A DNA stretch of 64,000 bases from Chloranthus sessilifolius (Eukaryota > Streptophyta > Magnoliopsida > Chloranthales > Chloranthaceae), in NCBI GenBank assembly GCA_021018995.1, contig CM037593.1, positions 14,474,088 through 14,538,087 on the forward strand, in the 5' to 3' direction. Below, piece by piece: positions 9,613 to 46,434 of the stretch (within the stretch, counting starts at the first letter, position 1; each line of letters opens with the position of its first letter). The notes under the pieces are model-generated. The model was not told the DNA's origin. It worked only from the letters and a program-made list of their open reading frames with translations, and made no database searches. Made by a program: the position numbers and the translations under genes.

Positions 9613-10650
9613 GAAACGACAAAATTTTGATAAATTCGAAAAGAGATTTGTGTGTTTGTTTGATAGTCAATCGATTGATATCTGTTCCTCAATCGATCGA
9701 CTGTGTTCTGTGGCTGTTGAAGTGCTGATTTGTCAATAGATTGAGCCGAAAGCATCAATCGATCGACTATTTTGTGTGAAATCCGAATTATTAGTTTCGA
9801 AAACCGCAATTTAATGTTTGAATTTTGATTTTTGAAATTTGGAATTAACATTGTTGATTTATGATTTGCAAAAATCTTATTTTTCTGATTTTGTTATCAT
9901 TGGGTAAGATTTTGTGGAGTTTTTTTTTTAGGAAGTAGAGATTTTTAGGATTTCTTATTTTCGATTTTGTAGGAGTCCCTTTTCTTTCTTCCTCTTTTAG
10001 AGAATATTTTGTAGGATTCCCTAAATTCTAGTTATTGCCTTTTGTGGGATTGCTTATTTTAGATTTTATAAGATTCTTCACTTTCTTATCTTCTTTTAGG
10101 TAATATTTTGTAGGATTTTGCGGGATTATTTCTTTTAGATTTGAAAATTTTGAAATTAAAATTTTGAATTTAAATTAAAATTTTAAATTTTAATTTTCAA
10201 ATTTAATTTTGATTTTTGAAATTCGAATTAAAAAAAAAAAAAATTTTAAAAAAAATCGAATTTTAATTTAATTTAATTAAAAAAAAAAAAATTTTTTCTT
10301 CTGATACTGGCTATTGTTCAACGTAGAAATCGATCGATTGAAAAATCTCTTTCAATCGATTGAGACTGGAATATTATTTACTGTGAAAATTTGTGGAAGT
10401 GTATCAATCGATTGACATTTCTCTGTCAATCGATTGACTAGACCGCTGCTACTTGCCTTCTAAGCTGAAAAATCTGTGCGGACTCAGTTTGCCTTGTGGA
10501 ATCAATTGATTGAGACCACTACTTCAATCGATTGATTGATAAAGTCCTTCTTGGGAATTTTTGTTGTGTGCGTTACTTCAATTGATTGAATTTGAAGTTT
10601 GTGGATTTATTGTGAATTCATCAATCCTTATTTTGAGTGTTGGTGTATGA
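9613..10650 (+). other. Element A leader with TCAATCGATTGA pairs
   Basis: An AT-rich untranslated leader. Palindrome pairs lie at about 9667-9770 and 10330-10590, between them a very AT-rich stretch (10140-10300). Several palindromes have decayed to TCAATTGATTGA or TCAATCGATCGA. I see no coding potential. Confidence 0.75.
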
Positions 10651-12480
10651 GCTTTACTCGATCTCATCACCCACATCTGCAACCGTTTAATCTTGAGATC
10701 GAAAGGTCTCGCAGAGAGAATCGCATAGCTCAAAGGAATTAGTATCATCATACTGAAATCTTGGCAAATCAAAGGCCAGAAATGAATGAGAACAATCAAA
10801 ATTTCAATAATGAAAATAATGAAAATAATAATAATGATGAGGGCCCAAGAACATTAGAATATTATAATGATCCTGGTTTTTACGAGGATCAGGATAGTAT
10901 CATGCATGCCCCCATTCAAGGAAACCATTATGAATTCAAATCCGCGATGATTCAAATGTTACCAATTTTCTATGGATTATCTAATGAGAATCTACATCTT
11001 CATTAAATGAGTTTACTGGGGTGTGTAAAATGTTCAGAGTTCACAATGTCACCGGCGAGATAGCTAAGCTACGACTCTTTCCTTTCTCTTTAGGAGATAA
11101 GGTAAAAACTTGGTTCTATTCATTAGAACCACAATCTATCCAGAGTTGGGCAGAGATTCAATTCCTTAAAAAATATTTTTCGATGACCAAAACCATCGAG
11201 TTGCATCAGAAGATTCAATTTTTCTCCCAACAACCTACAGAAACATTTCATGAATGTTGGGAGCGCTTCAAGGAATTGATCAGAAGTTATCTTAATCATC
11301 AACTTCCAAGGTGGCAACAGGTCCAAAGTTTTTACAATTGACTGATTCCAGAAGAAAAACACATGGTTCATGCATCTTGTGGAGGATCATGCGCCACAAA
11401 GGAGGCAGATGAATTGTGGGCGTTGTTTGAAAAGTTGTATCAATCCTCAATATAAAATATGACTCTGGGGCGAACTAATTTGGATGTGGCAGCTAAATCT
11501 CATGTGTTGACCAGAGATGGACTATTTGATGTCAACAACAACACCTCAGACCTTTCAACAAAAGTTGACATGTTGTCCAAGCAAATGAACATGCTGTTAG
11601 CTGCAACTAAGCTAGCTAAAAGTCCTAACAACCCCACGGCTTGTTCAATTGTGACCACCCAGGTCACATGGCTAATGAGTGTCCAACTACCTTGTCATTC
11701 TTCCCTGATGAACCTGCTCCTCAAGAGCAGGTGAATCTGACTCAATCGTATCAGCAACAGGGTAGGAACATATACTCAAACACCTACAATCCAGAATGAA
11801 AAAATCACCCCAACTTAGGATGGGGAGGATCAAACCAAACTAGACAGGTGAACCAGCAGTACAGATCCAACTTAATGAGTGGACAGTAGAACTTTCGGCC
11901 ACAACAAAATTCTAATTTCCAATAGAATTCTCCTTATTATCATCCAAATTCTGAATACTGAAAGAATCAGAATTTTAATCAATCTCAGACCACCGCTTTG
12001 AAAGATTCTGATTTGGAAGAAAAGATCATATGAAATATATAAGCTTTTCAGCGGATGATGATGGACCAATTTAGCCAACTGACAAATCAGTTGAGTCAAC
12101 GAGAGGAAGATAGGCTTCCTAGCCAATCCATCAATAATCCTCAAGGCCAAGTATCATCTGATGAAGGACCATCAAATAGTCAATAGTTGAAAGTTGTTAC
12201 GGTGCTGAGAAGTGGGAGAGCAGTTGATAATCAAGTGGAGATGTCAGTGGAACCTGACAAGGAAGAAGAAAAAGAAGCGACAAAAGGTAAAGGACTAGAA
12301 AAAGGAAAAGAGAAAAAAGATCCTCAAATTATCCAACAAGTACCTGAAGAAGAACCAGAAAATGAACCATGTTCCTATACCCCAAAGGCACCATTCCCTG
12401 AGTGCTTAACACCTCTATCTAGAATGGGGAAAGGAGCGTCAAAAATGAAAGAAATCTTCGAAACATTCAAATAAGTGAAG
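10650..12480 (+). pseudogene. Element A gag region (fossil)
   Basis: The order is: an Asn-rich N-terminus (NNENNNNDEGPRTLEYYNDPGFYEDQ), the capsid-like core (ETFHECWERFKELI), a zinc knuckle-like CDHPGHMANECP-type segment near 11650-11690, Gln/Asn-rich linkers, then a Lys/Glu-rich tail starting VVTVLRSGRAVDNQVEM near 12190. Gag would package the RNA. It is more decayed than in B or C. Confidence 0.8.
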
Positions 12481-12639
12481 ATAAATCTCCCATTACTTGA
12501 AACAAGCAAGCAAGTCGCTGAGTACGCAAAATTTTTCAAAGATCTATGCACTAGTAAAAGAAAAGCACGTGCTCACGTTTCAAAGAAAGTGTTCCTAACT
12601 AATTAAGTCAGCTCGATACTGCAATTGAATGCCCCACGA

Positions 12640-13060
12640 AAACTTAAGGACCCTGGAGTCCCAACTGTTCCATGTGTCATTGGTGGGCAACCAATTGATA
12701 AGACGTTACTAGATTTGGGAGCAAGTATCAATTTGATCCCATACTCAGTGTACGAGAAATTAGGACTAGGCGAATTGAAAACTACGACAGTTACACTGTA
12801 ACTTACTGATAGGTCAGAAAGAAAACCTAGGGGTATCATCAAGGATGTTTTGGTTGGAATAGACAGATTTATTTTCCCAGTGGACTTTATTGTGTTGGAC
12901 ATGAAACCACCAGTTAAATCCATCAATCAAGTCCCAATCATTCTTGAGCGTCCGTTTCTCGCAACCGCGAATGCTTGCATCAATTGTCAAATGAGAGTCA
13001 TGGATGTTTCTTTTGAAAACATGAAAGTCAGACTCAATATATTTCATGCAATAAACCATT
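12640..13060 (+). pseudogene. Element A protease region (fossil)
   Basis: The retropepsin-like segment is recognised by the active-site context DLGASINLIPYSVYEKLGLG near 12710-12775 and the downstream PPVKSINQVPIILERPFLAT stretch. DLGAS in place of D(T/S)GA is usual for Athila elements. Confidence 0.8.
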
Positions 13061-13499
13061 TTTCCAATGAGGATGAGGTTGATTGTTTCTACATCGATCA
13101 GGTGGATGAAGTAGTTGATAAAGCTTTACCATCAATGCTTACCAAAGAAGAATTCGAAATTGCTTTGTTAGCAATCTATGAGGAGAAAGGATCTGAGAAG
13201 AAACAATCAGAAGAGAAGAGGATGAATTCATCAAGTGAAGATGATACGTTATGTGAAATTGAGACTAAGATGGAACCATTACCTATTGAAGTAAAAGATG
13301 AGCTGACTCTATCAATCGAGCAGCCACCAGCCGTCGAATTAAAGAAACTGCTTGAGTCACTCAAGTATGCTTTTCTGGGACCTCAAGAAATATTTTCGGT
13401 AATTATCTCATCAATATTATCGGAAAAATAAGAGCATGAATTGTTAAAAGTGCTTAAAGATCATAAAAAAGCCATCGAATGGACCTTAGATGATCTTAA

Positions 13500-15678: not shown

Positions 15679-17141
15679 TGATCGATTTTAAATATAACCC
15701 TTGCAAGTGCACAAGATCTATTTCAGTATGGCAAGAACAGGGGTGTCGAACCCACAGGGAAATCTGAATTTTTAATTAATTCTTTCAGGGATTTAAAAAC
15801 ATCCCCAAGGAAGTACCAAGGGGCAGATTCAATTTACCAAAAATTTATCACTTTTTCTAAATGCAAGAAAAATAAATTAATCTGAACAACTAATTATCGA
15901 TGAATCTAAGAACAATATTTAAATAAGATCAAGAAATATGCTACCCCAGATTTGTACCCTCTTTTTTTACCATTAACACCCTTAGTTTCATTAAAGCATC
16001 ATTCACACCATCATTCATTCATAAAAATGATTTGAAATAAAGTATGATCATCAATCCGGCATTCCCTATCTAAAAACAATGACTCAGCCTAACATTGCGG
16101 TATGAGTCATGTAAGAAGCATAGCGTATCTCATGATGTGTAGATCAAAATAATAAAAACATAATCGCTCTACAGCCTAGATCAGCCTGCAGGTCCAGATC
16201 TAGCGATTACGGCCATTGATTCGCGCAATCAATGGTCATAACAAGCATTCAATATATTTTCAATAATACAAACTTTTAGCAAAAACGATTCCACAATGAC
16301 AGTAATTAGACTATGGTATTAATCATAAATATGGGTACTTATCTGAGGATCGCATCTTCCCCGATCTACTGATTTAGCCGCTCATCTTTGGTGTATGATC
16401 TCCTTGTTCATTCAAAGCCATTCCTCTTTTTATTTCTTCCCAAAAGATATTTGTTTACAATGCTCTCTCCTAAATACAATCTATGTTTTAAAAGAAAACA
16501 ATACAAATCCTAGGTACAATCTACCCTGATCAAACCCTAGAAGAAGGAGAGAAGAAGACCTTAAAAAGATGAAAAGAAGTTCTCCAAAGTGAAAAGCCCT
16601 AAAATTCCAAAATAATCAAATCTACTTCTAATTCCTCCAAAGAAAAGTCTCAAAAGATCTCAACACCAAGTCCAAAAACAGAGAGTCCTCTATTCAAAGC
16701 TTTAGCTTCCTTTTTATAATGGCCGAGCACACCTAAACCTAATTGCCTCAATCGATTGAGCCAGAAGTCTCAATCGATTGAATTTGAGTTCAATTTCTTT
16801 CGGGCATACGCCTTATGTGTCAATCGATTGATTTTCATGTCTCAATCGATTGATTTTCAGGCCTGAAGTTTATTTCATCTGTAAATCGATTGACAATGAT
16901 TCCTCAATCGATTGACTCTTCAATGTAAAGTCTCCTTTCTTGATGGATATTGATTCTCTTCTCGGATCTCAATGCTTCTTTGGACCTTTTTTTCTATAGC
17001 TCTTGCATAGCCTTTAATTTCCTTCTTTTAGGCTTTTGAACGATCTAATGGTCGGAAACACCTGTAAACATCAAAACCTCACAACAACCATCAGATGCTT
17101 TCATCGAACAGCTAAATGTAGTCATATTTCAGCACCGATCA
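15679..17141 (-). repeat. 3' LTR of element B (1463 bp)
   Basis: The plus strand starts TGATCGATTTTAAATATAACC and ends ...CAGCACCGATCA. It contains three TCAATCGATTGA pairs (16748-16915) just upstream, in LTR sense, of a TATA box at 16711-16720. Confidence 0.92.
16711..16720 (-). promoter_or_regulatory. TATA box, element B 3' LTR
   Basis: The minus strand reads ATTATAAAAA. The nearest palindrome pair starts about 28 bases upstream in LTR sense. The same box is at 30171-30180 in the 5' LTR, where it would drive the genomic RNA. Confidence 0.6.
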
Positions 17142-17156: not shown

Positions 17157-18830
17157 ACTTTGCTAGTCCTCGAGCAAAGAGAATATATAACGCAAATAAA
17201 ACTAACTTAAATGCCACTTCCGTAGGGAACACGATTGCATTTAGCATATGCAACAAGCCTTTAAACCCCTAGGTGATCCCTAGTGGAGGAGTTGTGTCTC
17301 CTGCAGGTTTTCAGCGAAGGTACCTACAAACTTCAAAGCTTATGAATTTCAGAATTATTATTTTTTTATTTTTTTAGCCATGCTCTTAAGCAGTCAAATG
17401 CCCCTGGAAAATCGTTTAAAATGCATCCGACCATGCTTATTTTATTAATGCTCATCCACATTAGTCTACTGTTTTTCAATGCTCATATTTTATGCATTAA
17501 TGTTATGCAATCATCACTGCTCAAATTCTTTTGCCTGAGAAGAAGCTTAAACTAGGCATCTTTTGATCACATGTCTTGACAAAATCTTTATCATGGATAT
17601 ACACTCAGAATGAAATCGCTCCTGATGAATGGATTTTATGTTTCACGCACATGTGAGATGGAGTTACAATGCAATTTAGAAAAATCTCACAATTTATACG
17701 AAAGACGGTGTATCAAAGAGTTTTAACCGAGATCTCATTAAGAAAGATATTTGTATTTTAAACATGGATATATCAAGCACCATAGACAATGTGTAATTAC
17801 TCTCCACAAGGCATTTACCACTCATGATTTGATCAAAAAGGTCTTTTCTAAGGTTGTAATGGGACTCGGGTAAAGGTTTAAGAAAGAAAGGGAATTTGGA
17901 TTTAAATTTTCTGAGAAATTGGAAAAGAAACAAACTTTTATTTTCTCTATCTCTCTTTTTTTTTCTTTTCTACTTTCTCACTATTTTTTTTTTTTTTTTT
18001 TCAATTTGCTTTTCCTTTGTTTTCCTTTTCTTAAAACACCTCATATTTTTCACTATTTTTTTCAAAATTTCTTTCTCTTTTTCTTTTTCTCCCCCCTTTT
18101 CTTTTATATTTTTGCCATACACCCTTAGTAAACACCACAACTCAGTATCTCTCCACGTACTCTCTTTTCACTCATTTTCATCCATCGTTCCTAATTTCTC
18201 AGAAATAAGAAGGGTAAAGCCGAATTTTCAGAAATGGTAAAGGGTTAACGGTTAATGTGGCTTATCGAAGAATGTATAAAGATAAATTTTCCAATAGGCT
18301 CAAAGGGGTACTAGAATGATACATTTATGAGGTGGGTCATTTTAAGCAAAAACAATCCAAAGATGGCCTCAGATCCTTTCCTTTCATTATGGTAAAATAT
18401 GCCTATATGCTTTGAGTTAATACACATTGATGTCTAGTGTAATGGTATACCACACGTACAATAAACAAATCAAAGAAAAGTAAATGAGATGTTAACAATT
18501 GAAGCAGGAATTCAAAGATACTCCGAATTTATTTCCACACTCATCAAGAACGAAGATAAGGTTTCGAAACTCACTGGGTTGAAGCTTTTCTTGTGATTTA
18601 AAAATTTCAAGTCATACACTTTATTCTCAAACTTGGAATTGGAGCCACGTGGTGGTGTACAAATTTTCAGGCATAGATTATAAATATCGCTATTTTAATT
18701 TTGAACTTTATGAGCATTCATTAAAACAAACGTGGTGTGATAACAAACTTTTAAAGAAATTCAAGTATTCACAATTTAAGGGAAAAAAAAATCAAATTTC
18801 ATTAGCCTTCCTGTCATCAGTCAATCGATT
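17157..18830 (-). other. Element B long 3' untranslated region
   Basis: About 1.7 kb without a credible ORF. It contains a nearly pure pyrimidine stretch on the plus strand (17935-18120, purine in element sense). Equivalent regions occur in C (32362-34090) and A (46440-46811 plus 49065-50300), and ends like TTTAAACCCCTAGGTGATCC are shared. Confidence 0.7.
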
Positions 18831-18931
18831 GACAATGATTCCTCAATCGATTAATTATTGACAATTCCCAATTGCAAATTTTTTATGGTTGGCAGTCAAT
18901 CGATTGAGACCACAACCTCAATCGATTGACT
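18831..18931. repeat. Palindrome pairs in the 3' untranslated region, element B
   Basis: Two pairs. The second (18896/18918) is part of a larger inverted repeat: CAGTCAATCGATTGAG, eight bases, then CTCAATCGATTGACTG. Confidence 0.9.
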
Positions 18932-19815: not shown

Positions 19816-20168
19816 GTCAATCGATTGACAGTTTAGTGTCAATCGATTGACAAAAGTTGGCAAGCATAGTGGTGCACTGGTCAAAGGTGACTTTTCCGAT
19901 TCAGGGTGGAAAGTTCAAGTAGCTGATTAATTTGACCGACCGACTATGCAGAAATCAATCGATTGACATTCCCTTGTCAATCGATTGACACAAGATACCA
20001 ATTATAGCTAAAAAAAAATGTCTATTTTTAGAATTTGCCTTTTTCTGATGCAGCAATCAATCGATTGAGAATAAATTCTCAATCGATTGACTGTGAGGAG
20101 TTGTGTTGCCTGAACTGCTAATAGAAAAGTGTGCAATCGATTGTGAGAGAAGCCTCAATCGATTGACT
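19816..20168. repeat. TCAATCGATTGA array between extra ORF and small ORF, element B
   Basis: Four pairs at 22-bp spacing (19817/19839 and onward), with unrelated spacers and up to 100 bases between pairs. Confidence 0.9.
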
Positions 20169-20396: not shown

Positions 20397-21541
20397 CTAA
20401 ACATTAACATCATCATCATCATCATCATATTCAGGGTCCCTCTCCTCGTTCATCGCCGCTCGCGCTCCTCCGATAAACTCGTCGGCACGCCCAGGGAATG
20501 ATTCCCGGGCCATCCGCATGAGGAGAGAAGTTTGAAACCTTGACCGTCGATCAACACCACCAAGCCTCGCATTCAGCCCATCCATCCGCGCCTCATGGTG
20601 AGTAACAGCTGCCTCGGCATCAAAATCAGGGACCTCTTCGGGACGAGGTCGTCTTACACCGCCACGTTGGCATTGTGCGGGGTTAGAACGGGGAGGAGGA
20701 GGTACATAAATCGCAATCGGGGGTGGCTGCACACGAAGGATCGCTTTCATGCTCTTATCCCACACATTGACACCATACTGGTAAAATTGCATGTCGCCTA
20801 ACTCCTCATCATCATAGATGGGGCAGCCAAGGTGATCCAAAAGGTGCATCACATAATGTGGGAAATGGAGGAGAATCGCTGCACGCTTAGCGTGCGGTGG
20901 TGGTGGCTATATCAACGTGCAGCGATACATCTCCTCGAGCATCGGACTTTGGCGCGCCAGACAAGTGTTTGTATGTGCAGCGTAAAGTGCAATCACCCTA
21001 TTCTTGGTCCTCTCGCTTTTCGTGCCATGCGGTAGGAGGTTGTTTGCCATGACGATATCCCAAAAGAGAATGTCCATCGGAAGAACAACTCGTTTAGTGG
21101 CCTGACCGGTACCGCGGCACCCTCCACACATATCATTGATCATGTCGTCCTGACTACGATCAATCGCGGGATTAATGTGGTGGTTCACAGGTCGAACCAC
21201 ATAAAAATTGAAGGCACGCGCGAGATCGGCGGCATGCAGATTATATTGCCAGTTGTCGATCTCGATGGGAATGTAGGGCATTCCTGTGGGCGATAGTGTT
21301 TCCGGTACCCATACCATTTTCTGATAAAACAGATGGATCAGGCGTGGAGAGACATCGATGGGTGGCGGGGCAAGCAACATTTCCAATCGCAAGGCCTCAA
21401 TGAATTCGATCGACAGTACTTGACCAGATCGTAGAAATTTTCCGTTTAGAACTGGCGATCGAAATAGTGCTCATTGGGGATGCGCATCGGATCGTTGGCG
21501 GGACGCGGTTGACGGAAGAGCGGTGGGCCAGGCACTGCCAT
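20397..21541 (-). pseudogene. Extra ORF region of element B (accessory protein, fossil)
   Basis: The ATG at 21541 opens MAVPGPPLFRQPRPANDPMR. Recognisable blocks follow: LLAPPPIDVSPRLIHLFYQ, NLHAADLARAFNFYVVRPVNHH, VVLPMDILFWDIVMANNLLP, KSERTKNRVIALYAAH, then a Pro-rich linker (YVPPPPRSNPAQ), GVRRPRPEEVP, a predicted helical RARMDGLNARLGG-type region and an Asp-rich tail (DDDDDD). It matches the A copy throughout. No signal peptide or membrane segment is visible, so it is not an obvious envelope protein. It resembles plant-transposon-type proteins of unknown role, with a few breaks. Confidence 0.8.
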
Positions 21542-21645: not shown

Positions 21646-22122
21646 TCAATCGATTGAGAATGGTTGGGATGCCCACGTTGCGAAGCTGGAGCGACATCTG
21701 GCAGATGTGGAGGAGACCTGGCTCATCACAATTCCTCAATAAATTTCAATCAATTGAGACTGATGGGTCTATCGATTGAGGAAACCTGTTTTCGAAGAGG
21801 TGCACCGGTTAGGTGCCCTCGGAAACGAGAGCTTTAATTATCCCATTAATTCAATCGATTGAGATACCATCCTCAATCGATTGAGCCAAACGTGCTCGCA
21901 AAGTTAGCTGCCTCGACAAGATGTGTCGGTTGGCGCTTCAAATCCCAAGGACTGCACAAAATTTTATATGGTGTCAATCGATTGACACATACCTCTCAAT
22001 CGATCGACACAAGAAGAGGAAAATGATGATGATGTTGGAAATTCTCAATCGATTGACAGGTACATGTCAATCGATTGATAAACAAGGGTCAATCGATTGG
22101 TATTCACGATCAATCGATTGAA
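21646..22122. repeat. TCAATCGATTGA array between pol and extra ORF, element B
   Basis: About ten copies, in pairs at 22-bp spacing (for example 21851/21873). The last copy lies eight bases from the TATA box at 21630. Confidence 0.92.
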
Positions 22123-24975: not shown

Positions 24976-25399
24976 CAGCTAGGGTTCATCCGATAGCCTG
25001 CTTGTGATCTTGAAGCACTTTCAACAAGTCATGCTCTTGTTCTTCCGATAACGTGGATGAAATTATCACCGGAAACGTTTCTCGTGGCCCCAGAAAAGCG
25101 TATTTGAGCGATTCAGGCAACTGTTTCAATTCCACAGTTGGTGGCTCCTCAATTGATGGAGTCGGTTCAGCTTTTACCTCAATGGGTAACGGTTCTATCT
25201 TAGTCACAACTTCACATAAGTTATCATCTGGACATGATAAACTCAACCTCGTCTCTTCTGACTGCTTCCTTTCAGATCCTTTTTCTTCATAGATGGCCAA
25301 CAAAGCGGTTTCAAATTCTTCTTTGGTGAGCATTGATGGTAATGCTTCATCCACCACTTCGTCCATTTGATCGATGTAAAAACATTCGACCTCATCCTC

Positions 25400-27984: not shown

Positions 27985-29116
27985 TAGGCTCAATCGATTG
28001 CAGCAAAGATCTCAATCGATTGACAGAAGCACACTTAAAATTTCACAAAAATGACTTTATCAGTCAATCGATTGAAGAACTGTTCTCAATCGATTGAGGT
28101 TCAAAGGTCAAAGCAAGTTAACACAGGAATTTCAGCCGAAATGGCAAGCACAGAATTTTTGTCAATCGATTGACAGAGGAATGTCAATCAATTGAAAGAA
28201 AAGCAAAGATCACAACAGAGAATATTTCAGTCTCAATCGATTGAACCTGAAGCTTCAATCGATTGAGTTCTAATATGAACAGTGGCGAAAATAAGAAGAA
28301 AAGAAAAGCAAAACAAGATAAATTAATTAATTTTTTTTTTTTTTTTAATTCGAATTTCAAAAATTAAAATTAAAATTTTAAGATTAAAATTAGAAATTAA
28401 AATTTTAAATCTAATGGCAATCCTAAGAATCTTATCTAAAAGAGAAAAATAAGGAAAAGAATAAAAGATTCCTAAATTTCCTAAGGAAGGTATCCTAAAT
28501 TTATAAACTTCCTAAAAAAAAAAAATTAATAACTAATTTTAGAAAATCCTAGAATATCTAAAAGAGGAAAATAAGGAAAAAGAATCCTACTAAAATAAGA
28601 AGTCATAAAAACCTAAACTTCCTAAAAGAGTCCTACAAAAACTTACCTAAGAGAGAAAAATAAGGGAAAGAAGATTTTGCAAATCAAAAATCTAAATATT
28701 AGTTTTTTTTTTTTAATTCAAAAATCAAAATTCACACAAGAAAATCAAAATTTAATTTAGAAATTAAATTTCAAAAATTCTAATTGCAAAAATTTAAGTT
28801 CGAAAATCAAAAATCAACCTTTGAGTACCAAATTTCAGATTTCAAATCCACAAACTTCCAAATTTTCAGAATTAAAGATTTTTTTTTTTTTTTTTTGTCA
28901 ATCTATTGACAAGTTAGTGTCAATCGATTGACACAGAAGTGCTGATAAAAACACAAGACACAGTCAATCGATTGACAAGAAGGTCTCAATCGATTGTTTG
29001 TCAAGTAGTTTCTCCACCACAGAATAGAGTCAATCGATTGAGGAAGAAATCTCAATCGATTGACTGCTAAAAAAAAAAAAAAATCCCTAATCCGAATTAA
29101 TCAAAATTTCGCCGAA
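27985..29116 (-). other. Element B leader with palindrome pairs
   Basis: Untranslated leader between primer site and gag. Four palindrome pairs lie at 27990-28266 and three at 28902-29067, each with 22-bp internal spacing where measured. Between them is an A/T-rich stretch with repeated CCTAAA(A/G)GAG words. No coding region is seen. Confidence 0.8.
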
Positions 29117-29141: not shown

Positions 29142-30623
29142 TGATCGATTTTAAATGTAACCCTTGCAAGTGCACAAGATCTATTGCAGTATGACAAGAA
29201 CAGGGGTGTCGAACCCACAGGGAAATCTAAATTTTTAATTAATTCTTTCAGGGATTTAAAAACATCCCCAAGGAAGTACCAAGGGGCAGATTCAATTTAT
29301 CAAAAATTTATCACTTTTTCTAAATGCAAGAAAAATAAATTAATCTGAACAACTAATTACCGATGAATCTAAGAACAATATTTAAATAAGATCAAGAAAT
29401 ATGCTACCCCAGATTTGTACCCCCTTTTTTTTACCATTAACACCTATAGTTTCATTAAAGCATCATTCACACCATCATTCATTCATAAAAATGATTTGAA
29501 ATAAAGTATGATTATCAATCCGGCATACCCTATCTAAAAATAATGACTCAGCCTAACATTGCGGTATGAGTCATGTAAGAAGCATAGCGTATCTCATGAT
29601 GTGTAGATCAAAATAATAAAAACATAATCGCTTCTACTAGATCACTGCAGTCCAGAGATCTAGCGATTACGGCCGTTAATTCACGCAATCAATGGACATA
29701 ACAAGCATTCAATATATTTTCAATAATACAAACTTTTAGCAAAAACGATTCCACAATGACAGTAATTAGACTATGGTATTAATCATAAATATGGGTACTT
29801 ATTTGGGGATCGCATCTTCCCCGATCTACTGATTTAGCCGCTCATCTTTGGTGTATGATCTCCTTGTTCATTCAAAGCCATTCCTCTTTTTATTTCTTCC
29901 CAAAAGATATTTGTTTACAATGCTCTCTCCTAAATACAATCTATGCTTTAAAAGAAAACAATGCAAATCCTAGGTACAATCTACCCTGATTAAACCCTAG
30001 AAGAAGGAGAGAAGAAGACCTTAAAAAGATGAAAAGAAGTTCCCCAAAGTGAAAAGCCCTAAAATTCCAAAATAATCAAATCTACTTCTAATTCCTCCAA
30101 AGAAAAGTCTCAAAAGATCTCAACACCAAGTCCAAAAACAGAGAGTCCTCTATTCAAAGCTTTAGCTTCCTTTTTATAATGGTCGAGCACACCTAAACCT
30201 AATTGCCTCAATCGATTGAGCCAGAAGTCTCAATCGATTGAATTTGAGTTCGAATTTCTTTAGGCACTTACGCTTATGTGTCAATCGATTGATTTTCATG
30301 TCTCAATCGATTGATTTTCAGGCCTGAAGTTTATTTCATCTGTCAATCGATTGACAATGATTCCTCAATCGATTGACTCTTCAATGTAAAGTCTCCTTTC
30401 TTGATGGATATTGATTCTCTTCTCGGATCTCAATGCTTCTTTGGACCTTTTTATCCATAGCTCTTGCATAGCCTTTAATTTCCTTCTTTTAGGCTTTTGA
30501 ATGATCTAATGGTCGGAAACACCTGTAAACATCAAAACCTCACAACAACCATCAGATGCTTTCCTCGAACAACTAAATGTAGGATTTAAGGTGTGAAATA
30601 TAGTCATATTTCAGCACAGATCA
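29142..30623 (-). repeat. 5' LTR of element B (1482 bp)
   Basis: Near-identical to 15679-17141. The longer length comes mainly from a 20-base stretch near the outer end (AGGATTTAAGGTGTGAAATA) absent from the other copy. Palindrome pairs lie at 30207-30380 and a TATA box at 30171-30180. Confidence 0.92.
30171..30180 (-). promoter_or_regulatory. TATA box, element B 5' LTR
   Basis: ATTATAAAAA on the minus strand, downstream of three palindrome pairs (30207-30380). This is the likely core promoter for the full-length transcript of B. Confidence 0.6.
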
Positions 30624-30628: not shown

Positions 30629-30869
30629 CCGGACAGAAGAGATTGGTTGAACCGGTTATCTGATGCTCTTTATGCATATTGTACTGCATTCAAGACCCCG
30701 ATCGAAATGTGACCGTTTAGGATTGTTTATGGGAAGGTATGCCATCTTCCAGTTGAATTGGAGCAGAAGGCATTCTGGGCCATAAAAAGATGTAATTTCG
30801 ATACGAAAGAGGCAGGGTCCAATCGACGCCTACAGCTGAACGAATTAGAAGAATTACGCTACGATGCAT
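30629..30869 (+). pseudogene. Element A integrase region, second piece (fossil)
   Basis: This piece between B and C encodes integrase sequence such as RRDWLNRLSDALYAY-type and [21 protein letters not shown], continuing the piece that stops at 15678. Bases 30624-30628 are the right target duplication of B; 30865-30869 (TGCAT) are the left one of C. Confidence 0.8.
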
Positions 30870-32346
30870 TGATCGATTTTCAATGTAACCCTTGCAAGTG
30901 CACAAGATCTATTACAGTATGGCAAGAACAAGGGTGTCGAACTCACAGGAAAACGTGAATTTTAATTAATTCTTTCAGAGATTTAAAAACGTCCCCAAGG
31001 AAGTACCAAGGGGCAGATTCAATTTACCAAAAATTTATCACACTTTTCCTAAATGCAAGAGAAATAAATTAAGCTAAACAACTAATTACTAATGAATCTA
31101 AGAACAATATTTAAATGAGATAAAGGAATATGCTATCCCAGATTAGTACCCCTTTTCTATCATTAAAACCCATAGTTTCATTAAAGCATCATTCACACCA
31201 TCATTCATCTAGCAAAATGATTCATAATAAAATATGATCATCAATCCGGCATACCCTATCTAAAAATAATGACCCAGTCTATCATTGCGGTATGAGTCAT
31301 GTAAAAAATATTGCGTATCTTATGATGTTTAGATCACAGCAGTAAATACATAATCGCTCTGCAGCCTAGATCAGCCTGTAGGTTCAGATCTAACAATTAC
31401 GGCCGTTGATATGCGCAATCAACAGTCATAACAAAGCATTCAATATATATTCAATCACACATACTTTGAGCAAAATGATTCCATGATGACAATAAATATA
31501 CTGCGGTATTAATCATAAAAATTGGTTACTTATCTGGGGATCGCATCTTCCCCGATCAACTGATTTAGCCGCTCATCTTTGGTGTATGATCTCCTTATTC
31601 ATACAAAGCCATTTTACTTTTCATTTCTTTTAAAGATCTTTTACACTTGTTTTTCCTAAATACAATCTATGATTTTCTAAAAGAAAAATAATGCAAACCT
31701 AAGTACAATCTACCCAGATTAAACCCTAGAAGAAGGAGGAAAGAAGACCCCTTGAAGAATGAAAAAGAAAAGTCCAATCCCAAATGATGAATCCTTCTTA
31801 ATGCAAACTCATAGCTTCCCTTTTATAGGGTCGAGCAAACCCTAAACCTAATAGCCTCAATCGATTGAGACTTAAACTCAATCGATTGACTTTTAAGTAC
31901 GGACAAAGTTGTCTTCATGTGTCAATCGATTGACACTTAGTCCTCAATCGATTGACATCTAAAAGCAATTTCCGTGAACTTCTGCCCAACTTTACATCAG
32001 ATACTGCCTTGGTATTTTGGCTATAACGTTCTGTCCCGAACTCGGATTGAGGCGATTCTTATGGCATTGGAAAGAAGACGACGAGCTTTAGAATGCTTAT
32101 GTTTTAGAAACTTCATAAATCTGACATCTTGAAGGTCCAAATTAAGCTGCAAGTTACACTAAGTTCTCGATGACCCAAAATTACAGTGTTTTGACATTAT
32201 TTTCGGAATTCTTGGGCTGTTTTAGAAACTTGGATTGTATTTACCTGAAACACTTCAAATCTAGTAAATCTCATCAGATAGCCTTCATCGGACGGCTAAA
32301 TATAGGTATTTAGGGGTAAAATATCATCATAGTTCACTACTCATCA
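30870..32346 (-). repeat. 3' LTR of element C (1477 bp)
   Basis: The plus strand starts TGATCGATTTTCAATGTAACC and ends ...TTCACTACTCATCA. Two palindrome pairs lie at 31857-31957 and the TATA box at 31820-31828. The 370 bases toward its outer end match element D rather than B. Confidence 0.92.
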
Positions 32347-38579: not shown

Positions 38580-40510
38580 CTTTTTCACGTCCTTGTTGGA
38601 CAGTTGGAGGAGACTCTTCCTCTATTACTTTCTCTTTTCCTTTTTCTACTCCTTTCTCTTTCTCTTTTCCTTTCTCTACTCCTTTCTCTGGCTCTTTGTC
38701 TCTTTCTTTCTCTCTTTCCTGATCAGATTCCATAGGCATTTTCACTTGATTATCAACCGCTCTTTCGCTTCTCAGCACCGTAACAACTTTCAACTATTGA
38801 CTATTTGATGGTCCTTTATCATGTGGTGCTTGGCCTCGAGGATTATTGATGGGTTGGCATGGAAGCCTACCTTCCTCTCGTTGACTCAATTGATTGGCCA
38901 ATTGACTGACTTGGTCCATTATCATCTGCTGAAAAGATTGCATGCTGAAAAGATTGCATGCTTCGCATCACCTTTTCTTCTAAATCAGAATCTTTCGAAG
39001 TAATAGGATGCGATTGATTGAGATTCTGATTAAAATTCTGATTTTTTTTGTACTCAGAATTTGGATGATAATACGAAGCATTCTGCTGGAGATTGGAATT
39101 CTGATAGAAATTAGAATTCTGTTGGAAATTATGTTGTGGACAAAGTTTTGTTGTCCACCCATTGTGTTGGCTCTGTACTGTTGGTTTACCTGACCAATTT
39201 GGTTCGATCCACCCCATCCTAAGTTGGGGTATTTTTTCATTCCGGATTGTAGGTATTGGAGTATATGTTTCTATCCTACCGCTGATAAGATTGAGTCACA
39301 TTGACCTGCTCTTGAGGAGTAGGTTCATCAGGGAAGAATGACAAGGTAGTAGGGCACTCATTAGCCATGTGACCTGGGTGGTCACAAATTGAACACACAG
39401 TGGGGGTGACAGGAGCTTTAGCTTGCTTAGTCGCAGCTAACAATATATTCATTTGCTTGGACAACATATCAACCTTTGTTGATAGATCATAGGTATTATT
39501 TTTGACATCATACAATCCATCTCTTGTCAACACATGAGATTTAGGTGCCAGATCCAAGTTAGTTCGCCCCAGTGTCTCACTTTGTATCGAAGTTTGGTAT
39601 AACTTCTCAAACAATGCCCACAATTCGTCAGTTTCTTTTGTGGCACATGATCCACCACACGATGCATCAACCATGCGTCTCTCTTCAGGAATCAGTCCAT
39701 TGTAAAAACTTTGGACCTGTTGCCACCTTGAAACTTGATGATTGGGGCAACTTCTGATTAATTCCTTAAAACGTTCTCAACATTCATGGAATTTTTCTGT
39801 AGGTTGTTGGGAAAAGAATTGAATCTTCTGACGTAACTCAATGGCTTTAGTAATGGGAAAATATTTTTTAAGGAACTGACGATGTAGCTCTACCCAACTC
39901 TGGATAGATTGTGGTTCTAAGGAATAGAACCACGTTTTTGCCTTATCTCTTAAAAAGAAAGGAAAAAGTCGGAGTTTAGCTATCTCATCAGTGACATTGT
40001 GGACTCTGAACATTTTGCAGACCCCAGTGAATTCATTTAGATGAACGTGCGGATTTTCATTGGCTAAACCATGGAAAATCGGTAACATTTGAATCATTGC
40101 TGATTTGAATTCATAGTGGTTCCCTGGAATAGGGGCATGCATGATACATTCCTGATCCTCGTAAAAACCAGGATCATTATAATATTCCAATGTTCTAGGG
40201 ACCTCATCAAAATTACTGTTCCTATTATTTCCATTATTGGCGTTCCCATTGTTGTTATTCTCATTTCTCTCTTGCCTTTGATCTGCCATGGCTTCAGTAT
40301 AATGATACTGATTCCTCTGGATTCTACGATTCTCTCTACAAGATCTTTCGATCTCAAGATTAAACGGTTGCAGATGTGGGTGATGAGATCGAGTAAAGCT
40401 CATGCACCAACACTCACAACAAGGATTGATGAATCCACAACAAACCCAAAAAAATTCAACTTCAATCGATTGAAACAAGTATTTCAATCGATTGGCACAA
40501 GCACACACAA
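38580..40510 (-). pseudogene. Element C gag region (fossil)
   Basis: The order is: MSFTRSHHPH-type N-terminus, MADQRQERNENNNN, PRTLEYYNDPGFYEDQECIM, capsid-like core with FFLRDKAKTWFYSLEPQS and FSQQPTEKFHEC, zinc knuckle CSICDHPGHMANEC (about 39360-39400), Asn/Gln-rich linker, and a Glu/Lys-repeat tail (KGKEKEKGVEKGKEK near 38640-38700). It is broken in a few places. Confidence 0.85.
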
Positions 40511-41302
40511 ATTTTCAAACAAATGACTTGATCAGTCAATCGATCGAAGAATTGTTCTCAATTGATTGAGGTTCAATAGTCAAACGGAGTCAGCACAGAT
40601 TTTGCAGCTAAGATGGCAAACAACAGAGCTCTTGTCAATCGATTAACAGAGGAATGCCAATCGATTGAAATAAACCTGAGAATTCACAGAGAATGATATC
40701 CCAGTCTCAATCGATTGACAGTGAATGTTCAATCGATTGAGTCTAAGATAAACAGTAGCCAATATCAGAAGGAAAAGAAGAGAAATTTTTTATTTTTTAT
40801 TTTTTATATTTTTTTTAAATTCGAATTTCAAAAATAAAAATTAAATTTGAAAATTAAAATTTAAGATTTAAATTTTAAAATTCAAAATCCACAATTAAAA
40901 ACTAAAAATTTAAATTTTAAAGCCTAAATGCAATCCTACAGAATCCTATAAAATCTTACCTAAAAGAGAAAAAAAAGGGAGAGAATAAAAAGATTCCTAC
41001 AAATCCTAAAGCAAGTAGTCCTATAAAAATTAATAACTAGATTTTAGAAAATCCTACAAGATATCTAAAAGAGGAAAATAAGAAAAATGGACTCCTACAA
41101 AATCTAAATAAGAAATCCTAAAAATCTCTACTTCTTAAAAGAACTCTATAAAATCTTACCAAAGAGAAGAAAAATAAGGGAAAGAAGATTTTACAAATCA
41201 AAAATCTAATCAAACTTCCAAATTTTCAGAATTAAAGATTTTTTTTTTTTTTATACTACTCACAACTGATCTCTTCTCGAATTAATCAAAATTTCGTCGA
41301 TA
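40510..41302 (-). other. Element C leader with palindrome pairs
   Basis: Three to four TCAATCGATTGA pairs at about 40461-40741, just before gag, then an AT-rich stretch up to the primer site. The palindromes next to the primer site seen in B are missing here. Confidence 0.75.
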
Positions 41303-41327
41303 TTCCCCGGCAACGGCGCCAAAAACT
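41303..41327 (-). promoter_or_regulatory. Primer binding site of element C (tRNA-Asp type)
   Basis: The plus strand carries TCCCCGGCAACGGCGCCA, a full match to the 3' end of plant tRNA-Asp, next to the 5' LTR. Confidence 0.88.
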
Positions 41328-42803
41328 TGATCGATTTTAAATGTAACCCTTGCAAGTGCACAAGGTCTATTGCAGTATGGCAAGAACAAGGGTGTCGAAC
41401 CCACAGGGAAACATGAATTTTAATTAATTCTTTCAGAGATTTAAAAACGTCCCCAAGGAAGTACCAAGGGGTAGATTCAATTTATCAAAAATTTATCACA
41501 CTTTTCCTAAATGCAAGAGAAATAAATTAATCTAAACAACTAATTACTAATGAATCTAAGAAAAATATTTAAATGAGATCAAGGAATATACTATCCCAGA
41601 TTAGTACCCCTTTTCTATCATTAAAACCCACAGTTTTATTAAAGCATCATTCACACCATCATTCATCTAGAAAAATGATTCGTAATAAAATATGATCATC
41701 AATCCGGCATACCTTATCTAAAAATAATGACTCAGCCTATCATTGCGGTATGAGTTGTAAAAAGCATAGCGTATCTCATGATGTTTAGATCACAACAGTA
41801 AGCACATAATTGCTCTGCAGCCTAGATCAGCCTGCAAGTTCAGATCTAGCGATTACGGCCGTTGATATGCGCAATCAATGGTCATAACAAAGCATTCAAT
41901 ATATATTCAATCATACATACTTTGAGCAAAACGATTTCATGATGACAATAAATATACTGCGGTATTAATCATAAAAATTAGTTACTTATCTGGGGATCAC
42001 ATCTTCCCCGATCAACTGATTTAGCCGCTCATCTTTGGTGTATGATCTCCTTGTTCATTCAAGGTCATTCCACTTTTCATTTCTTTCAAAGATCTTTTAT
42101 ACTTGTTTTTCTTAAATATAATCTATGATTTCCTAAAAGAATAACAATGCAAGCCTAAGTACAATCTACCCAGATTAAACCCTAGAAGAAGGAGGAAAGA
42201 AGAGCCCTTGAAGAATGAAAAAGAAAAGTCCAATCCCAAATGATGAATCCTTCCTAATGCAAACTTGTAGCTTCCCTTTTATAGGGTTGAGCAAATCCTA
42301 AACCTAATAACCTCAATCGATTGAGACTTAAATCTCAATCGATTGACTTTTAAGTAGGGACAAAGTTGTCTTCATGTGTCAATCGATTGACACTTAGTCC
42401 TCAATCGATTGACATCTAAAAGCAATTTCCGTGAACTCTCGCCCAACTTTGCATTAAACACTGTCTCGGTATTTTGGCCATAACTTTCTGTCCCGAACTC
42501 GAATTGAAGCGATTCTTGTGGCGTTGGAAATAAGACGACGAGCTCTAGAACGTTTGAGTTTTAGAAATATCATGAATCTGACATCTTGAAGGTCCAAATT
42601 AAGCTTCAAGTCACACTAAGTTCTTGATGACCCAAAATTGCAGTGTTTTGACATTCTTTTCAGAATTCTTGAGCTGTTTTAGAAACTTGGATTGTATTTA
42701 CCTGAAACACTTCAAATCTAGTAAATATCATTAGATAGCCTTCATCGGAAGGCTAAATATAGGTATTTAGGGGTGAAATATCATCATATTTCACTACTCA
42801 TCA
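41328..42803 (-). repeat. 5' LTR of element C (1476 bp)
   Basis: Partner of 30870-32346, about 95% similar by eye. Palindrome pairs lie at 42313-42414 with 22-bp spacing and the TATA box (CTATAAAA on the minus strand) at 42277-42284. Confidence 0.92.
42277..42284 (-). promoter_or_regulatory. TATA box of the element C 5' LTR
   Basis: CTATAAAA on the minus strand, about 30 bases downstream of the palindrome pairs in LTR sense. The copy in the 3' LTR is at 31820-31828. Confidence 0.6.
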
Positions 42804-43151: not shown

Positions 43152-43178
43152 CTCAGTGCTTCCTGGGAGGCAACCCAG
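43152..43178 (+). other. Conserved hairpin after pol, element A
   Basis: CTGGG (43163-43167) and CCCAG (43174-43178) can pair around AGGCAA. The flank CAGTGCTTC matches B and C. Confidence 0.75.
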
Positions 43179-43220
43179 TGTGTTTATTTTGTTATGTTTT
43201 TAATTGAGGAAGAGTCTTTT

Positions 43221-43724
43221 TCAATCGATTGACTCCACAAAGTCAATCGATTAACCTTTTTCACTCAATCGATTGACACTTATCCTGTCAATCGATTGAT
43301 GTTCATCGTCATCATCACCTCCTTCTTTCAGATGCCAATCGATTGAAACTCATTTTTCAATCGATTGACATTATCTCGAATTAATAACCAACTTTCAGAT
43401 AGCGGAGCGCCAATAGACACATCTTGTCGATTGCAGCTAATTTTAAGGGCACGTCAATGTCAATCGATTGGGATAAACCTCTCAATCGATTGACTTGATT
43501 GCATATTAACTCTGTCGGTTCCCAAGGCACCTAAACGGTGCGACTTTTCGCGAAAAGGTCATTCTCAATCGATTGACATAACTATGTCAATCGATTGACA
43601 TTAAAAATGGATGAGTGGATTGTACCACGTCACATCCGCATGCCTTGTGTCTCTTCGCATTCCCACGACGTGGTAAGAGCAACCGTTTTCAATCGATTGA
43701 GACTCCATCCTCAATCGATTGACA
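43221..43724. repeat. TCAATCGATTGA array between pol and extra ORF, element A
   Basis: Six pairs, spaced 22 bp (one pair 23 bp), for example 43689/43711. Most copies are intact even though the neighbouring coding regions of A are badly decayed. Confidence 0.92.
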
Positions 43725-43731
43725 TTTGCAT

Positions 43732-43738
43732 TATATAA
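43732..43738 (+). promoter_or_regulatory. TATA box of the element A extra ORF
   Basis: TATATAA lies nine bases after the last palindrome and 93 bases before the ATG at 43825. B has the same order and distances. Confidence 0.55.
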
Positions 43739-43824
43739 TGGGGACACCCGTGGTCCCCTCCTTCACTCGCCTCCTCCAATCTGAGTTAGTGTTTTAATTT
43801 CCACTCTCCTCATACGCAATCAAA

Positions 43825-44985
43825 ATGGCGGCGCTTGGACCACCTATATACCGACCACCTCGTCCCGCCAACACTCCTATGCGCATTCCTAACGACGAGT
43901 ACGTGAATCGTCAGTTTCAAATGGAGAATTTCTTCAATCTAGTCAAATACCGTCGCATTGCAAAGGCCGCCCGTTCGATTGAATTTGTCGAGACTCTACA
44001 CTTGGAAATATTGCTCGCTCCTCCTCCTATAGATGTTTCGCTCCGTATTCTAAGGCTATTTTACCAGAACATGGAATGGGTGTCCGCTCCAGTGTCGCTA
44101 ACGGGATTACCCTTCATCCGCCTCGAGATCGACAATTGGAGATATAACTTGCATGCTGCCGATCTCGCACGGGCTTTCAATTTCTACGTGGTTTGCCCAT
44201 TAAACCACCACATCAATCCTGTCGTTGATCGCAGCTAGGACCTTATGATCAACAATATGTGTAGAGGACGTCGCGGGTCCGATTTGGCCACTAAAAGAGC
44301 CGTCCTACCAATGGACATCCTGTTTTGGGACATCGTTATGTCAAACAATTTGCTACCGCATGGAACGAAAAGCGAACGAACCAAGAATAGGGTATTGGCG
44401 CTTTATGCGGCACACATGAATACATGGTTTGATGCTCCGGGACTAATGCTTGAAGAAATGTATCGGTGTCACAGCGACATCGTGATCATCACCGCACCAA
44501 AGAAGCGAGAAGCTATTCTTTTGCATTTCCCTCACTATTTGATACGTCTTTTAGACCAAGTTGGGTGCCCGATTTATGATGATAAAGAGATGGGTGATTT
44601 GCAATTTTATCACTACGACACGAACGTTTGGGATAAGAGCATCAAGGCTATTCTTCGTGTGACGCCACCTCTTATTGACATTGATGATGTGCCTCCTCCT
44701 CCCAGACCAAACCCCGCACAACGCCAATGCGGCAGCATTAGACGGCCTCGTCCTGAAGAGGTCCCAAATTTTAACGCCGAGGTAGCAGTCGCTCACCTCA
44801 AGGCGCGGATGGATGGGTTGAGTACCACTGTAGGAGGTATTGATCGACGTTCACGGTTTCAGACTTCACTTGTCATGCGGATGGCCCGAGAATCGTTCCC
44901 TGGGCGTGTCGATGGATTCATCGCAAGAGCGAGAGTGGCGATGGATGAGGAGGGAGACCCTGAAGATGATGATGATGATCAGTGA
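43825..44985 (+). pseudogene. Extra ORF region of element A (accessory protein, fossil)
   Basis: The ATG at 43825 opens MAALGPPIYRPPRPANTPMR. The blocks are LLAPPPIDVSLRILRLFYQ, NLHAADLARAFNFYVV, AVLPMDILFWDIVMSNNLLP, SERTKNRVLALYAAHMNTWF with a following LEEMYRCH, CPIYDDKEMGDLQFYHYDTN, a Pro-rich linker, IRRPRPEEVPNF, a helical RMARESFPGR region and an acidic Asp-rich end. The RLFYQ and ALYAA...WFDA...LE-M blocks also occur in chromovirus E. No signal peptide or membrane anchor is seen. Function unknown; a nuclear or DNA-binding role is only a guess from the acidic and basic patches. Close to whole. Confidence 0.8.
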
Positions 44986-45202
44986 TTGTTTGTTTGTGTT
45001 TTGTTTGTGTTTGTGTCTGTTTAGTGTTTGTGTGGTTGTTTTATTTTGTTTGATGTGATTTTCATTTTGTTTTTAGGTAGGATTAATCGTAGTGTGTTTT
45101 CTAGTGATGATGGGATCATGTGGGTGTAATCAAATCAATAAATTCGAAATGTTTTTAGTGTGTTAATTTCTGTTTGTTCTCCGATTGGTACATAAGTGCA
45201 TC

Positions 45203-45442
45203 AGTCAATCGATTGAGATTAAACTCTCAATCGATTGAGCCCTTAATTCCTGAACAGCAACTCCACTTAGTCAATCGATTGAGGAACAACTCTCAATCGA
45301 TTGATTTCTGCATGGGCAGAACTGTTTAATCTATCAGGAACAGAAAGTTTCTCTATAGAAATTATTTCGAAAAAGGCAAAATTGTACTTCCCTTGGCATG
45401 TTGTGTCAATCGATTGACACTAAAATGTCAATCGATTGACTG
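45203..45442. repeat. TCAATCGATTGA array between extra ORF and small ORF, element A
   Basis: Three pairs at exactly 22-bp spacing (45205/45227 and onward). Confidence 0.92.
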
Positions 45443-45561
45443 AGGTATAATTCCATAAAGTTGCATCTTCCATTCCGAAAATCCAGATTTGAACCGTCCG
45501 TAGAGTCCTTAGTTTAGGAGTCTTCTTTGAGTCCAAGAAGTTCATGTTTAGAATGCTTTCT

Positions 45562-45570
45562 TTATTTAAA
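45562..45570 (+). promoter_or_regulatory. TATA-like box of the element A small ORF
   Basis: TTATTTAAA lies about 70 bases before the ATG at 45639 and downstream of the palindromes, as in B. Confidence 0.45.
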
Positions 45571-45638
45571 TCTCTTCTAAGATAGCCCTTTCAATCACCT
45601 TCGTCAAAATAGTATTTCCTCCTCCCCAAGCTTTCGCG

Positions 45639-45902
45639 ATGGCTTCCATCAAGTATCGTACTCGCTCAGCTGTTAAGAAATTGATGGAACCGGCTAGGAA
45701 ACGTCCACGACACCACTCACCTCGCCCACCGACTGCTTTGGAGAATCATGAAGTGATTGATTTAGACTTGCCATCGCCTAGCCCACCACCATCTCCGCCA
45801 CACGCACTTATTCCACCACCACGCGAGGACAGGATCACAGAGGAGATGTGGAAGTATGCATTCCCGAAGCCGAAGGAAGGAAGATCCTTCATGGATGACT
45901 AA
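45639..45902 (+). CDS. Small accessory ORF of element A, 87 aa
   Basis: The ORF reads MASIKYRTRSAVKKLMEPAR followed by KRPRHH, a basic run that fits a nuclear localisation signal. ENHEVIDLDLP fits the SUMO-interaction pattern V-I-D-L with acids next to it. A Pro/Ser-rich middle follows, then EEMWKYAFPKPKEGRSFMDD. It aligns with the 111-residue ORF of B, with the middle shorter. The ATG is supported by that alignment and the TATTTAAA box 70 bases upstream. It looks whole, in contrast to the rest of A. No known family recognised. Confidence 0.65.
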   Translation: MASIKYRTRSAVKKLMEPARKRPRHHSPRPPTALENHEVIDLDLPSPSPPPSPPHALIPPPREDRITEEMWKYAFPKPKEGRSFMDD

Positions 45903-46163
45903 AGGTTTAGGAATGGTAGTCTTAAGGAGCGAGTTTAGGTTTTAGTCTTAAGTTCTTCTAATATTTCTAAATTTTAGTTTCCTTCATGTTTTAGATTAGG
46001 TTCTTTTTAGACTCGTTTTAAACTAAGATTATTTTCTTTTTCAATAAGTGTAATAATATGCACAAATTTAATAAAAGTTTAGTAATTAGTTAATTGTGCT
46101 TTTAATTTTGATCACAATACCTTTCACTTGGTCCGCCAATTAGTTTTCGATTGCAGTAAACAT

Positions 46164-46237
46164 GTTTGGGGGAGTCTTTTACGCTCTCTAATATTTTCAC
46201 CAATGAGGACATTGGCCGACTCAAGTTTGGGGGGGTA
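46164..46237 (+). promoter_or_regulatory. Paired internal G tracts and CAATGAGGACATTG hairpin, element A
   Basis: ATGTTTGGGGGAG (46163-46174), CAATGAGGACATTG (46201-46214) and AAGTTTGGGGGGGTA (46224-46237), the same order as in B and C. Confidence 0.65.
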
Positions 46238-46317
46238 TTTCTTTCGATTCATAGGTATAGAATTTATTATTTAAAAAAAAAAGAAAAAAAAAGAGACTGT
46301 TCTCGGATATTAAGGTA

Positions 46318-46434
46318 CATCAGTCAATCGATTGAAACCAACTTCCTCAATCGATCGACTGATGATCAACAGACTTATTGGAAACCCTCATCAGTCAATC
46401 GATTGAGGAATTGAAGTCAATCGATTGACTGATG
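46318..46434. repeat. Palindrome pairs in the 3' untranslated region, element A
   Basis: Two pairs, each nested in a larger inverted repeat: the outer arm CATCAGTCAATCGATTGA is matched by TCAATCGATTGACTGATG. Confidence 0.9.

Follow-up and report, generated by a model that had tools for sequence, protein, structure and literature searches.

The closest described system to the one reported here is the set of palindromic repeated motifs (RMs) of Sireviruses. These are high-copy palindromic boxes that lie in the long terminal repeats (LTRs) upstream of the TATA box and before the env-like open reading frame (ORF), and their sequence varies by element; the RM of Tnd-1, for instance, is ACAATCGATTGT (PMC2829016). 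The present study concerns a window of 64,000 nt (the whole stretch that was analyzed) from Chloranthus sessilifolius: assembly GCA_021018995.1, contig CM037593.1, positions 14,474,088–14,538,087, forward strand. The window contains three Athila-like Ty3/gypsy retrotransposons, herein called A, B, and C, which carry arrays of a 12-bp palindrome, TCAATCGATTGA. These arrays are of the same kind as the Sirevirus RMs, in Ty3/gypsy elements.

The likeness extends to the motif and to its placement. Tnd-1's ACAATCGATTGT has the core CAATCGATTG in common with the present word (PMC2829016, accessible text), and element B holds at least eight palindromic copies, found both in the LTR and upstream of the env-like ORF. 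However, Sireviruses are Ty1/copia elements, whereas the carriers examined here have gypsy-type gag and pol domains. The accessible part of the Sirevirus report gives a CGG-CCG core for the motifs (Tnd-1 excepted), in contrast to our half-sites TCRAT and ATYGA, and lists Tnd-1 without ENV and without a conserved TATA motif (PMC2829016). Strict 22-bp pairs and distances of 9 or 29–31 bp to a TATA box are features of the present arrays. A second comparison is with the VANC/VANDAL system, in which short noncoding motifs of a transposon are likewise often arrayed and differ between related elements; there, the carrier is a DNA transposon, the motif (YAGTATTAC/T) is not palindromic, and the binding protein is known (PMC5735166, accessible text).

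A text search of the open-licence PMC literature for the 12-mer TCAATCGATTGA returned no relevant paper by title or abstract. As far as that literature reaches (a subscription paper could hold them), the new features are pairing held strictly at 22 bp, exact distances to the TATA box, a single spacing rule for different palindromes, and the apparent exchange of a block.

A palindrome paired at 22 bp

TCAATCGATTGA occurs 72 times in the window without a mismatch and 97 times when up to one mismatch is allowed (the exact copies included); dinucleotide shuffles of the window gave a mean of 0.55 and a maximum of 3. A sequence-only reading of this DNA had asserted that the word recurs nearly always as two copies whose starts are 22 bp apart, with few exceptions at 21 or 23 bp. 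Indeed, 95 of the 97 sites have a partner (two mismatches or fewer) at 21–23 bp, and 89 have one at exactly 22 bp. Counted as pairs (two mismatches or fewer per site), 46 of 50 are spaced by 22 bp, two by 21 bp, and two by 23 bp; the seven pairs that had been named as examples are all where they were said to be, all at 22 bp. Two lonely sites, at 10578 and 21646, show no trace of a partner. Six 44-bp gaps were searched for a third site that a 22-bp lattice would place there, and none was found (8–11 mismatches). Each palindrome is composed of two 5-bp half-sites, TCRAT and ATYGA, around a 2-bp center, and a loose search for TCRAT-NN-ATYGA found 126 places in the window vs. 0.85 in 20 shuffles.

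The pairing is not confined to this window. We searched the genome (2.17 Gb, 32 contigs), with the reversed word as the control; all genome-wide repeat counts given here are lower bounds. There were 64,441 copies of TCAATCGATTGA vs. 79 of the reversed word. Exact pairs numbered 18,872 at 22 bp, compared to 921 over all spacings of 13–21 bp and 1,402 over 23–32 bp, and the control yielded none in any of these ranges. The sharp peak at 22 bp that had been predicted for such a scan is therefore present. Among 14 unselected 10-kb stretches (L010–L023), three (L014, L017, L021) contain TCAATCGATTGA sites.

The spacers had been described as differing freely, and for the most part they are unlike: at 8/10 identity, the spacers of the 46 pairs with 22-bp spacing form 32 groups. 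Among the merged groups are LTR duplicates and positions that are homologous between A, B, and C, and in element B one identical spacer is present in the LTR (16882) and in the 3' region (18821). This last case suits the view that tandem duplication and template-switch (quasi-palindrome) copying in reverse transcription gave rise to the arrays as by-products, with no selected function. So do tandem arrays elsewhere in the window, namely units of 89–90 bp in an LTR fragment (D, below) and three sites 83 bp apart (4996, 5079, and 5162) in a region that we call E1. We nevertheless judge this origin to be quite unlikely: the 12-mers and their distance are kept while most spacers differ, an unlike palindrome (TCGCTCGAGCGA, below) is also found at 22 bp, and both the phasing to TATA boxes and the absence from coding stretches are left unexplained.

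Location of the arrays and phasing to TATA boxes

Arrays are found in the LTR before the TATA box, in the leader, directly before gag, between integrase and ORF3 (the frame between pol and the 3' LTR), and after ORF3 (Table 1). The coding stretch from gag to integrase contains no site at one mismatch or fewer in A, B, or C. Likewise, the integrase-to-gag stretch of L008 (2 to 5212), one of several other loci numbered with L, has no site, and pre-gag and LTR arrays are present in that locus. The open frame of gag in C, taken from stop to stop, reaches upstream into the pre-gag array, as do the corresponding matches in B and L008; a start codon of the gag frame in B is downstream of the array. 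The order of integrase, array, ORF3, and array recurs in L007 and L021, and also in L006, where a TCGATTAATCGA array is in between. In alignments of homologous arrays, site columns were identical in 529/596, 309/345, and 1,242/1,344 cases (89–92%) and other columns in 935/1,433, 645/1,119, and 2,766/4,740 (58–65%), a contrast that is inflated because the site columns were picked by their likeness to the motif.

Some arrays are phased to a TATA box. Upstream of ORF3, the distance from the last site to a TATATA box is exactly 9 bp in A, B, L006, L007, and L021, and the E1 array likewise ends 9 bp before a TATATATATAAAA stretch; the nine intervening bases are unlike one another in all of these. 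In LTRs, the distance is 29 bp in B, C, L007, L008, and L021 and 31 bp in L014 and L017. The two preferred distances thus differ by 20–22 bp, about one array step. For the window and loci together, an outward-facing TATAWA was present within 60 bp of 21 of 129 array ends and an inward-facing one at 14 of 129, compared to 140 of 2,580 random 60-mers (5.4%); 15 of the 21 outward boxes are located at 9 bp (six) or 29–31 bp (nine). The genome-wide count covered spacings of 9 to 28 bp, the LTR distances (29–31 bp) being drawn from the window and loci: TATATAA was exactly 9 bp from a site at 385 places vs. 231 over the 19 spacings from 10 to 28 bp.

We consider it likely that the pairs are promoter-proximal sites of a sequence-specific, dimeric DNA-binding protein that acts on paired sites. 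One dimer would occupy each 12-bp palindrome, and the two dimers of a pair, separated by about two helical turns (22 bp), would act jointly on the same DNA face. Each element would have two promoters whose upstream part consists of such arrays, that of the LTR and an internal one for ORF3, and at these promoters the arrays would be phased to the TATA box at 9 bp or 29–31 bp. As judged from the sequence, binding would be cooperative, its effect would probably be activation rather than repression, and the TATA boxes would belong to active promoters.

With respect to the elements themselves, Pfam identified gag, protease, reverse transcriptase, RNase H, and integrase domains on the open pieces of A, B, and C (pooled), and the ORF layout fits the name Athila. 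Element A is on the plus strand and is split into pieces around B and C, which, from a self-comparison of the window, appear to be nested in it. B and C are on the minus strand; the LTRs of B (15679–17121 and 29142–30582) are 96.8% identical and those of C (30869–32346 and 41327–42803) are 93.3% identical. ORF3 is present in A and B; that of A matches PF20167 below the cut-off (E 0.022), that of B has no Pfam match to PF20167, and no ORF3 match was found in C. E1 (1–5.3 kb) has a chromodomain integrase ahead of a PF20167 ORF, the two being placed in one element by position only. The E1 ORF is a homolog of ORF3 of A (E 5e-10 in a single comparison; 38% over 72 residues). A diverged repeat block at 53290–54460 (self-identity 66–76%) is without the palindromes.

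Table 1. Arrays, associated boxes, and ORF3-like frames in the window.
Element	Feature	Position	Strand	Remark
A	Two pairs in leader after LTR	9667..9766	+	
A	Array directly upstream of gag	10330..10589	+	
A	Integrase-ORF3 array	43221..43722	+	Last site ends 9 bp before TATATAA
A	TATATAA of putative ORF3 promoter	43732..43738	+	
A	ORF3 fragment	44239..44982	+	Weak PF20167 match under cut-off; homologous to ORF3s of B and E1
A	Post-ORF3 array, three pairs	45205..45439	+	No TATA seen nearby
A	Two pairs near 3' end	46324..46428	+	CATCAG/CTGATG flanks
B	3' LTR, three pairs	16748..16915	-	TATA starts 29 bp past last site
B	Two pairs in 3' noncoding region	18821..18929	-	
B	Post-ORF3 array	19817..20166	-	
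B	ORF3, two open pieces	20400..21470	-	One frame, stop between
B	Integrase-ORF3 array	21646..22121	-	Last, unpaired site ends 9 bp before TATATAA (21636-21630)
B	Four pairs upstream of gag	27990..28266	-	
B	Three leader pairs	28898..29063	-	Pair starts 66 bp apart
B	5' LTR, three pairs	30208..30376	-	TATA 29 bp past last site
C	3' LTR, two pairs	31857..31955	-	TATA 29 bp past last site
C	Four pairs upstream of gag	40462..40740	-	
C	5' LTR, two pairs	42313..42412	-	TATA 29 bp past last site
D	LTR fragment homologous to start of C LTR	8349..8559	-	TCRATGCATCGA/TCRATTAATCGA pairs; minus-strand reading
E1	First TCGATTAATCGA array	1466..2009	+	Near spacings 20-22; between chromodomain integrase and PF20167 ORF
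E1	PF20167 (Transposase_32) ORF piece	2249..3265	+	E 1.1e-7, under Pfam cut-off; homologous to Athila ORF3
E1	Second TCGATTAATCGA array	4676..5274	+	After PF20167 ORF

Protein dimers or hairpins

A palindrome that is present twice is also an inverted repeat, and selection for structure could have kept each pair as a hairpin stem of 12 bp with a 10-nt loop, in RNA or in single-stranded DNA. A hairpin was the alternative that the sequence-only reading had set beside a dimeric protein. Such a stem has no need for each arm to be palindromic, yet the dyad is perfect in 72 of the 97 TCAATCGATTGA sites, as expected for dimer binding. Half-site positions 4 and 5 were changed three and four times, respectively, vs. 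15 and 14 times for positions 1 and 3; these uneven changes count in favor of a protein because the positions of a hairpin stem should be alike. The arms are conserved in sequence rather than drifting with compensation. The 109 pairs compared divide into 49 perfect ones, 48 with a change in one arm, and 12 with changes in both. In the orientation of the element, changes that keep a G-U pair are not favored (18 vs. 20 that do not), and some arrays stop directly upstream of a TATA box. An Rfam scan of the window gave no match at gathering scores, and a scan for tRNA genes gave none.

The flanks of the sites were scrutinized as well. It had been claimed that the bases just outside each palindrome are symmetric and that many pairs lie in a larger inverted repeat. 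Neither holds as a rule: the two sides of a single site, compared over 5 positions, were no more complementary than in permuted pairs, and the same was true of a pair's outer flanks over 14 positions. Covariation of the outer flanks also did not exceed permutation in the window, in a non-redundant set from the window, or in other loci, which again speaks against a hairpin. Single pairs with longer arms do exist (CATCAG/CTGATG at 46324 and 46395). The CATCAG/CTGATG arms enclose both 3' pairs of A (46324–46428), and similar “catcag” flanks are seen at other pairs.

Several observations weigh against paired dimer sites. The first and last bases of the spacer match in 27 of 45 window pairs (expected 14.5, p = 0.0005), and they do so in 17 of 32 after removal of similar spacers (p 0.006), in 21 of 39 at other loci (p 0.0014), and in 16 of 33 from a genome-wide pair listing (p 0.025), the last two sets overlapping. 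The window value alone is moderate evidence because 39 flank tests were made; it is the repetition across sets that counts. Further, one of the 12 doubly changed pairs is perfectly compensated, at two positions (L006:3679). A simple model of two dimers predicts neither result. Sites with two mismatches occur in the coding stretches at 25149 and 38886, both unpaired. Most of the 129 array ends have no adjoining TATA box, as the counts above show, and none was seen upon inspection of the pre-gag and post-ORF3 arrays. Six of the 21 outward boxes lie at other distances (3, 4, 16, 27, 38, and 39 bp). Finally, the TATA-phased copies are largely related by descent and so represent few independent events.

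The matching spacer ends and the compensated pair speak for a hairpin. Its other predictions (flanks, G-U pairs) mostly fail, and we regard a selected hairpin as very improbable. Template switching, as in the by-product view, would also suit both results. They may reflect a bound complex that prefers inner half-sites that match, or else traces that template switching has left. Binding by a dimeric protein stood as the better of the two explanations first offered, with the genome-wide 22-bp peak in its favor, although the arguments from symmetric flanks and larger inverted repeats failed statistically. It is further supported by the avoidance of the coding stretch, by the phasing to TATA boxes, and by an unrelated palindrome that shares the spacing peak.

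Other palindromes and candidate binders

That unrelated palindrome is TCGCTCGAGCGA, with 30,274 copies genome-wide (control, 141). Its pairs, counted over spacings of 22–32 bp, number 4,250 at 22 bp vs. 367 over 23–32 bp. A stretch at L010:1966-2215 combines a distant gag match with TCGCTCGAGCGA pairs 22 bp apart. A third palindrome, TCGATTAATCGA, has 241,617 copies genome-wide (control, 55) and 33 in the window, 31 of which are in E1, in two arrays flanking the PF20167 ORF. In the window and loci, to which the TCGATTAATCGA spacing count was confined, neighbors within 12–32 bp are 19 (seven cases), 20 (eight), 21 (13), or 22 bp (two) apart. The 22-bp rule is not universal among repeated palindromes: L022:3255-4109 has 12 copies of GGCACCTAGGTGCC, several of them following one another at about 29 bp and others at close to 118 bp, and the TCAATNNATTGA sites of L004, L005, and L009, whose centers (AG, GG, CT, CC) are not palindromic, are spaced by 16 and 19 bp. 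The latter sites perhaps belong to another element family.

Fragment D (8251–8950, minus strand) allows a direct comparison of arrays, as it is 82.6% identical to the LTR of C over 379 columns. The detected homology ends about 10 bases before the array, and both have their first site at position 392. There, C has TCAATCGATTGA pairs, whereas D (8349–8559) carries TCRATGCATCGA/TCRATTAATCGA pairs spaced by 20, 20, and 22 bp. Mixed TCGATTAATCGA/TCGATGCATCGA pairs in units of 89–90 bp lie in D where C has its array. The palindromes differ while pairing is kept, and the array looks as though it was exchanged as a block.

These comparisons hint at a shared retrotransposon promoter code, which we put forward tentatively, as a possibility short of an even chance. 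Various 12-bp palindromes, paired about two helical turns apart, would, at promoters, be docked at a fixed distance from the TATA box; they would be read by related dimeric proteins, each with its own half-site, and an array could be swapped as a module, as in the LTRs of C and D. The idea is based on three palindromes (TCAATCGATTGA, TCGATTAATCGA, and TCGCTCGAGCGA; more than 330,000 copies together) with a 5-bp half-site and a 2-bp center, the genome-wide spacing having been counted for TCAATCGATTGA and TCGCTCGAGCGA.

What protein might bind? The elements could encode it themselves: ORF3 (PF20167) would then be a regulatory or anti-silencing protein that targets the sites, and the specificities of the two would co-evolve as in VANC. 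This proposal overlaps in confidence with binding by a dimeric protein at large, from which it differs by naming the protein and its role. Arrays do adjoin a PF20167-like ORF in A, B, L006, L007, L021, and E1, and the palindromes vary by element type. In the accessible text of the respective reports, VANC targets are often tandem repeats that vary between related elements (PMC5735166), and a nuclear localization signal is predicted in a PF20167 protein of a sunflower Athila element (PMC11728184). However, Pfam finds no DNA-binding domain in the ORF3 pieces, the E1 piece has no relative in the PDB, L011 and L013 have matches to the E1 ORF3 but none of the TCRATNNATYGA sites, and C keeps its LTR and pre-gag arrays with no ORF3 match. 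A search with ORF3 of A found no relative at E 1e-3, and structure predictions for ORF3 (three window sequences) were uninformative (pLDDT 38.8). On the whole, we think it unlikely that ORF3 is the binder.

A host factor of the WOX homeodomain type is a lead only. Tomato SlWOX9 has the DAP-seq site (T/C)CAATCA, and TCAATC fits each half of TCAATCGATTGA; the TCGAT and TCGCT half-sites found here do not fit, and the accessible part of the SlWOX9 report describes neither a palindrome nor 22-bp pairing (PMC12781540).

A parallel was found in bacteria. In a bacterial genome collection, TCAATCGATTGA-N10-TCAATCGATTGA occurs in two stretches, both from Acidobacteriota (L001:3649-3682 and L002:5233-5266). 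The pair sits between divergent genes, which in L001 are of TetR type by Pfam; the two stretches resemble each other in their neighboring frames. Perhaps it is a double operator, which would share with the plant arrays an identical pair and a setting suited to dimers but is bacterial. We interpret the likeness as convergent, in sequence as well as in geometry, and the bacterial pair as an independent example of this arrangement suiting dimers. In IMG/VR, the exact pair was not found, and neither pol nor the E1 ORF had a confirmed relative.

To our knowledge, on/off control of plant retrotransposon promoters is known for few elements only. The presumed sites described here are so frequent and so rigidly spaced that it should be possible to find the protein that binds them. 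Different palindromes that share one spacing rule, together with the apparently swapped LTR array, would form a natural series in which to follow how elements switch regulators. Finally, the TATA boxes next to the internal arrays suggest that ORF3, an accessory gene, has a separate promoter of its own.

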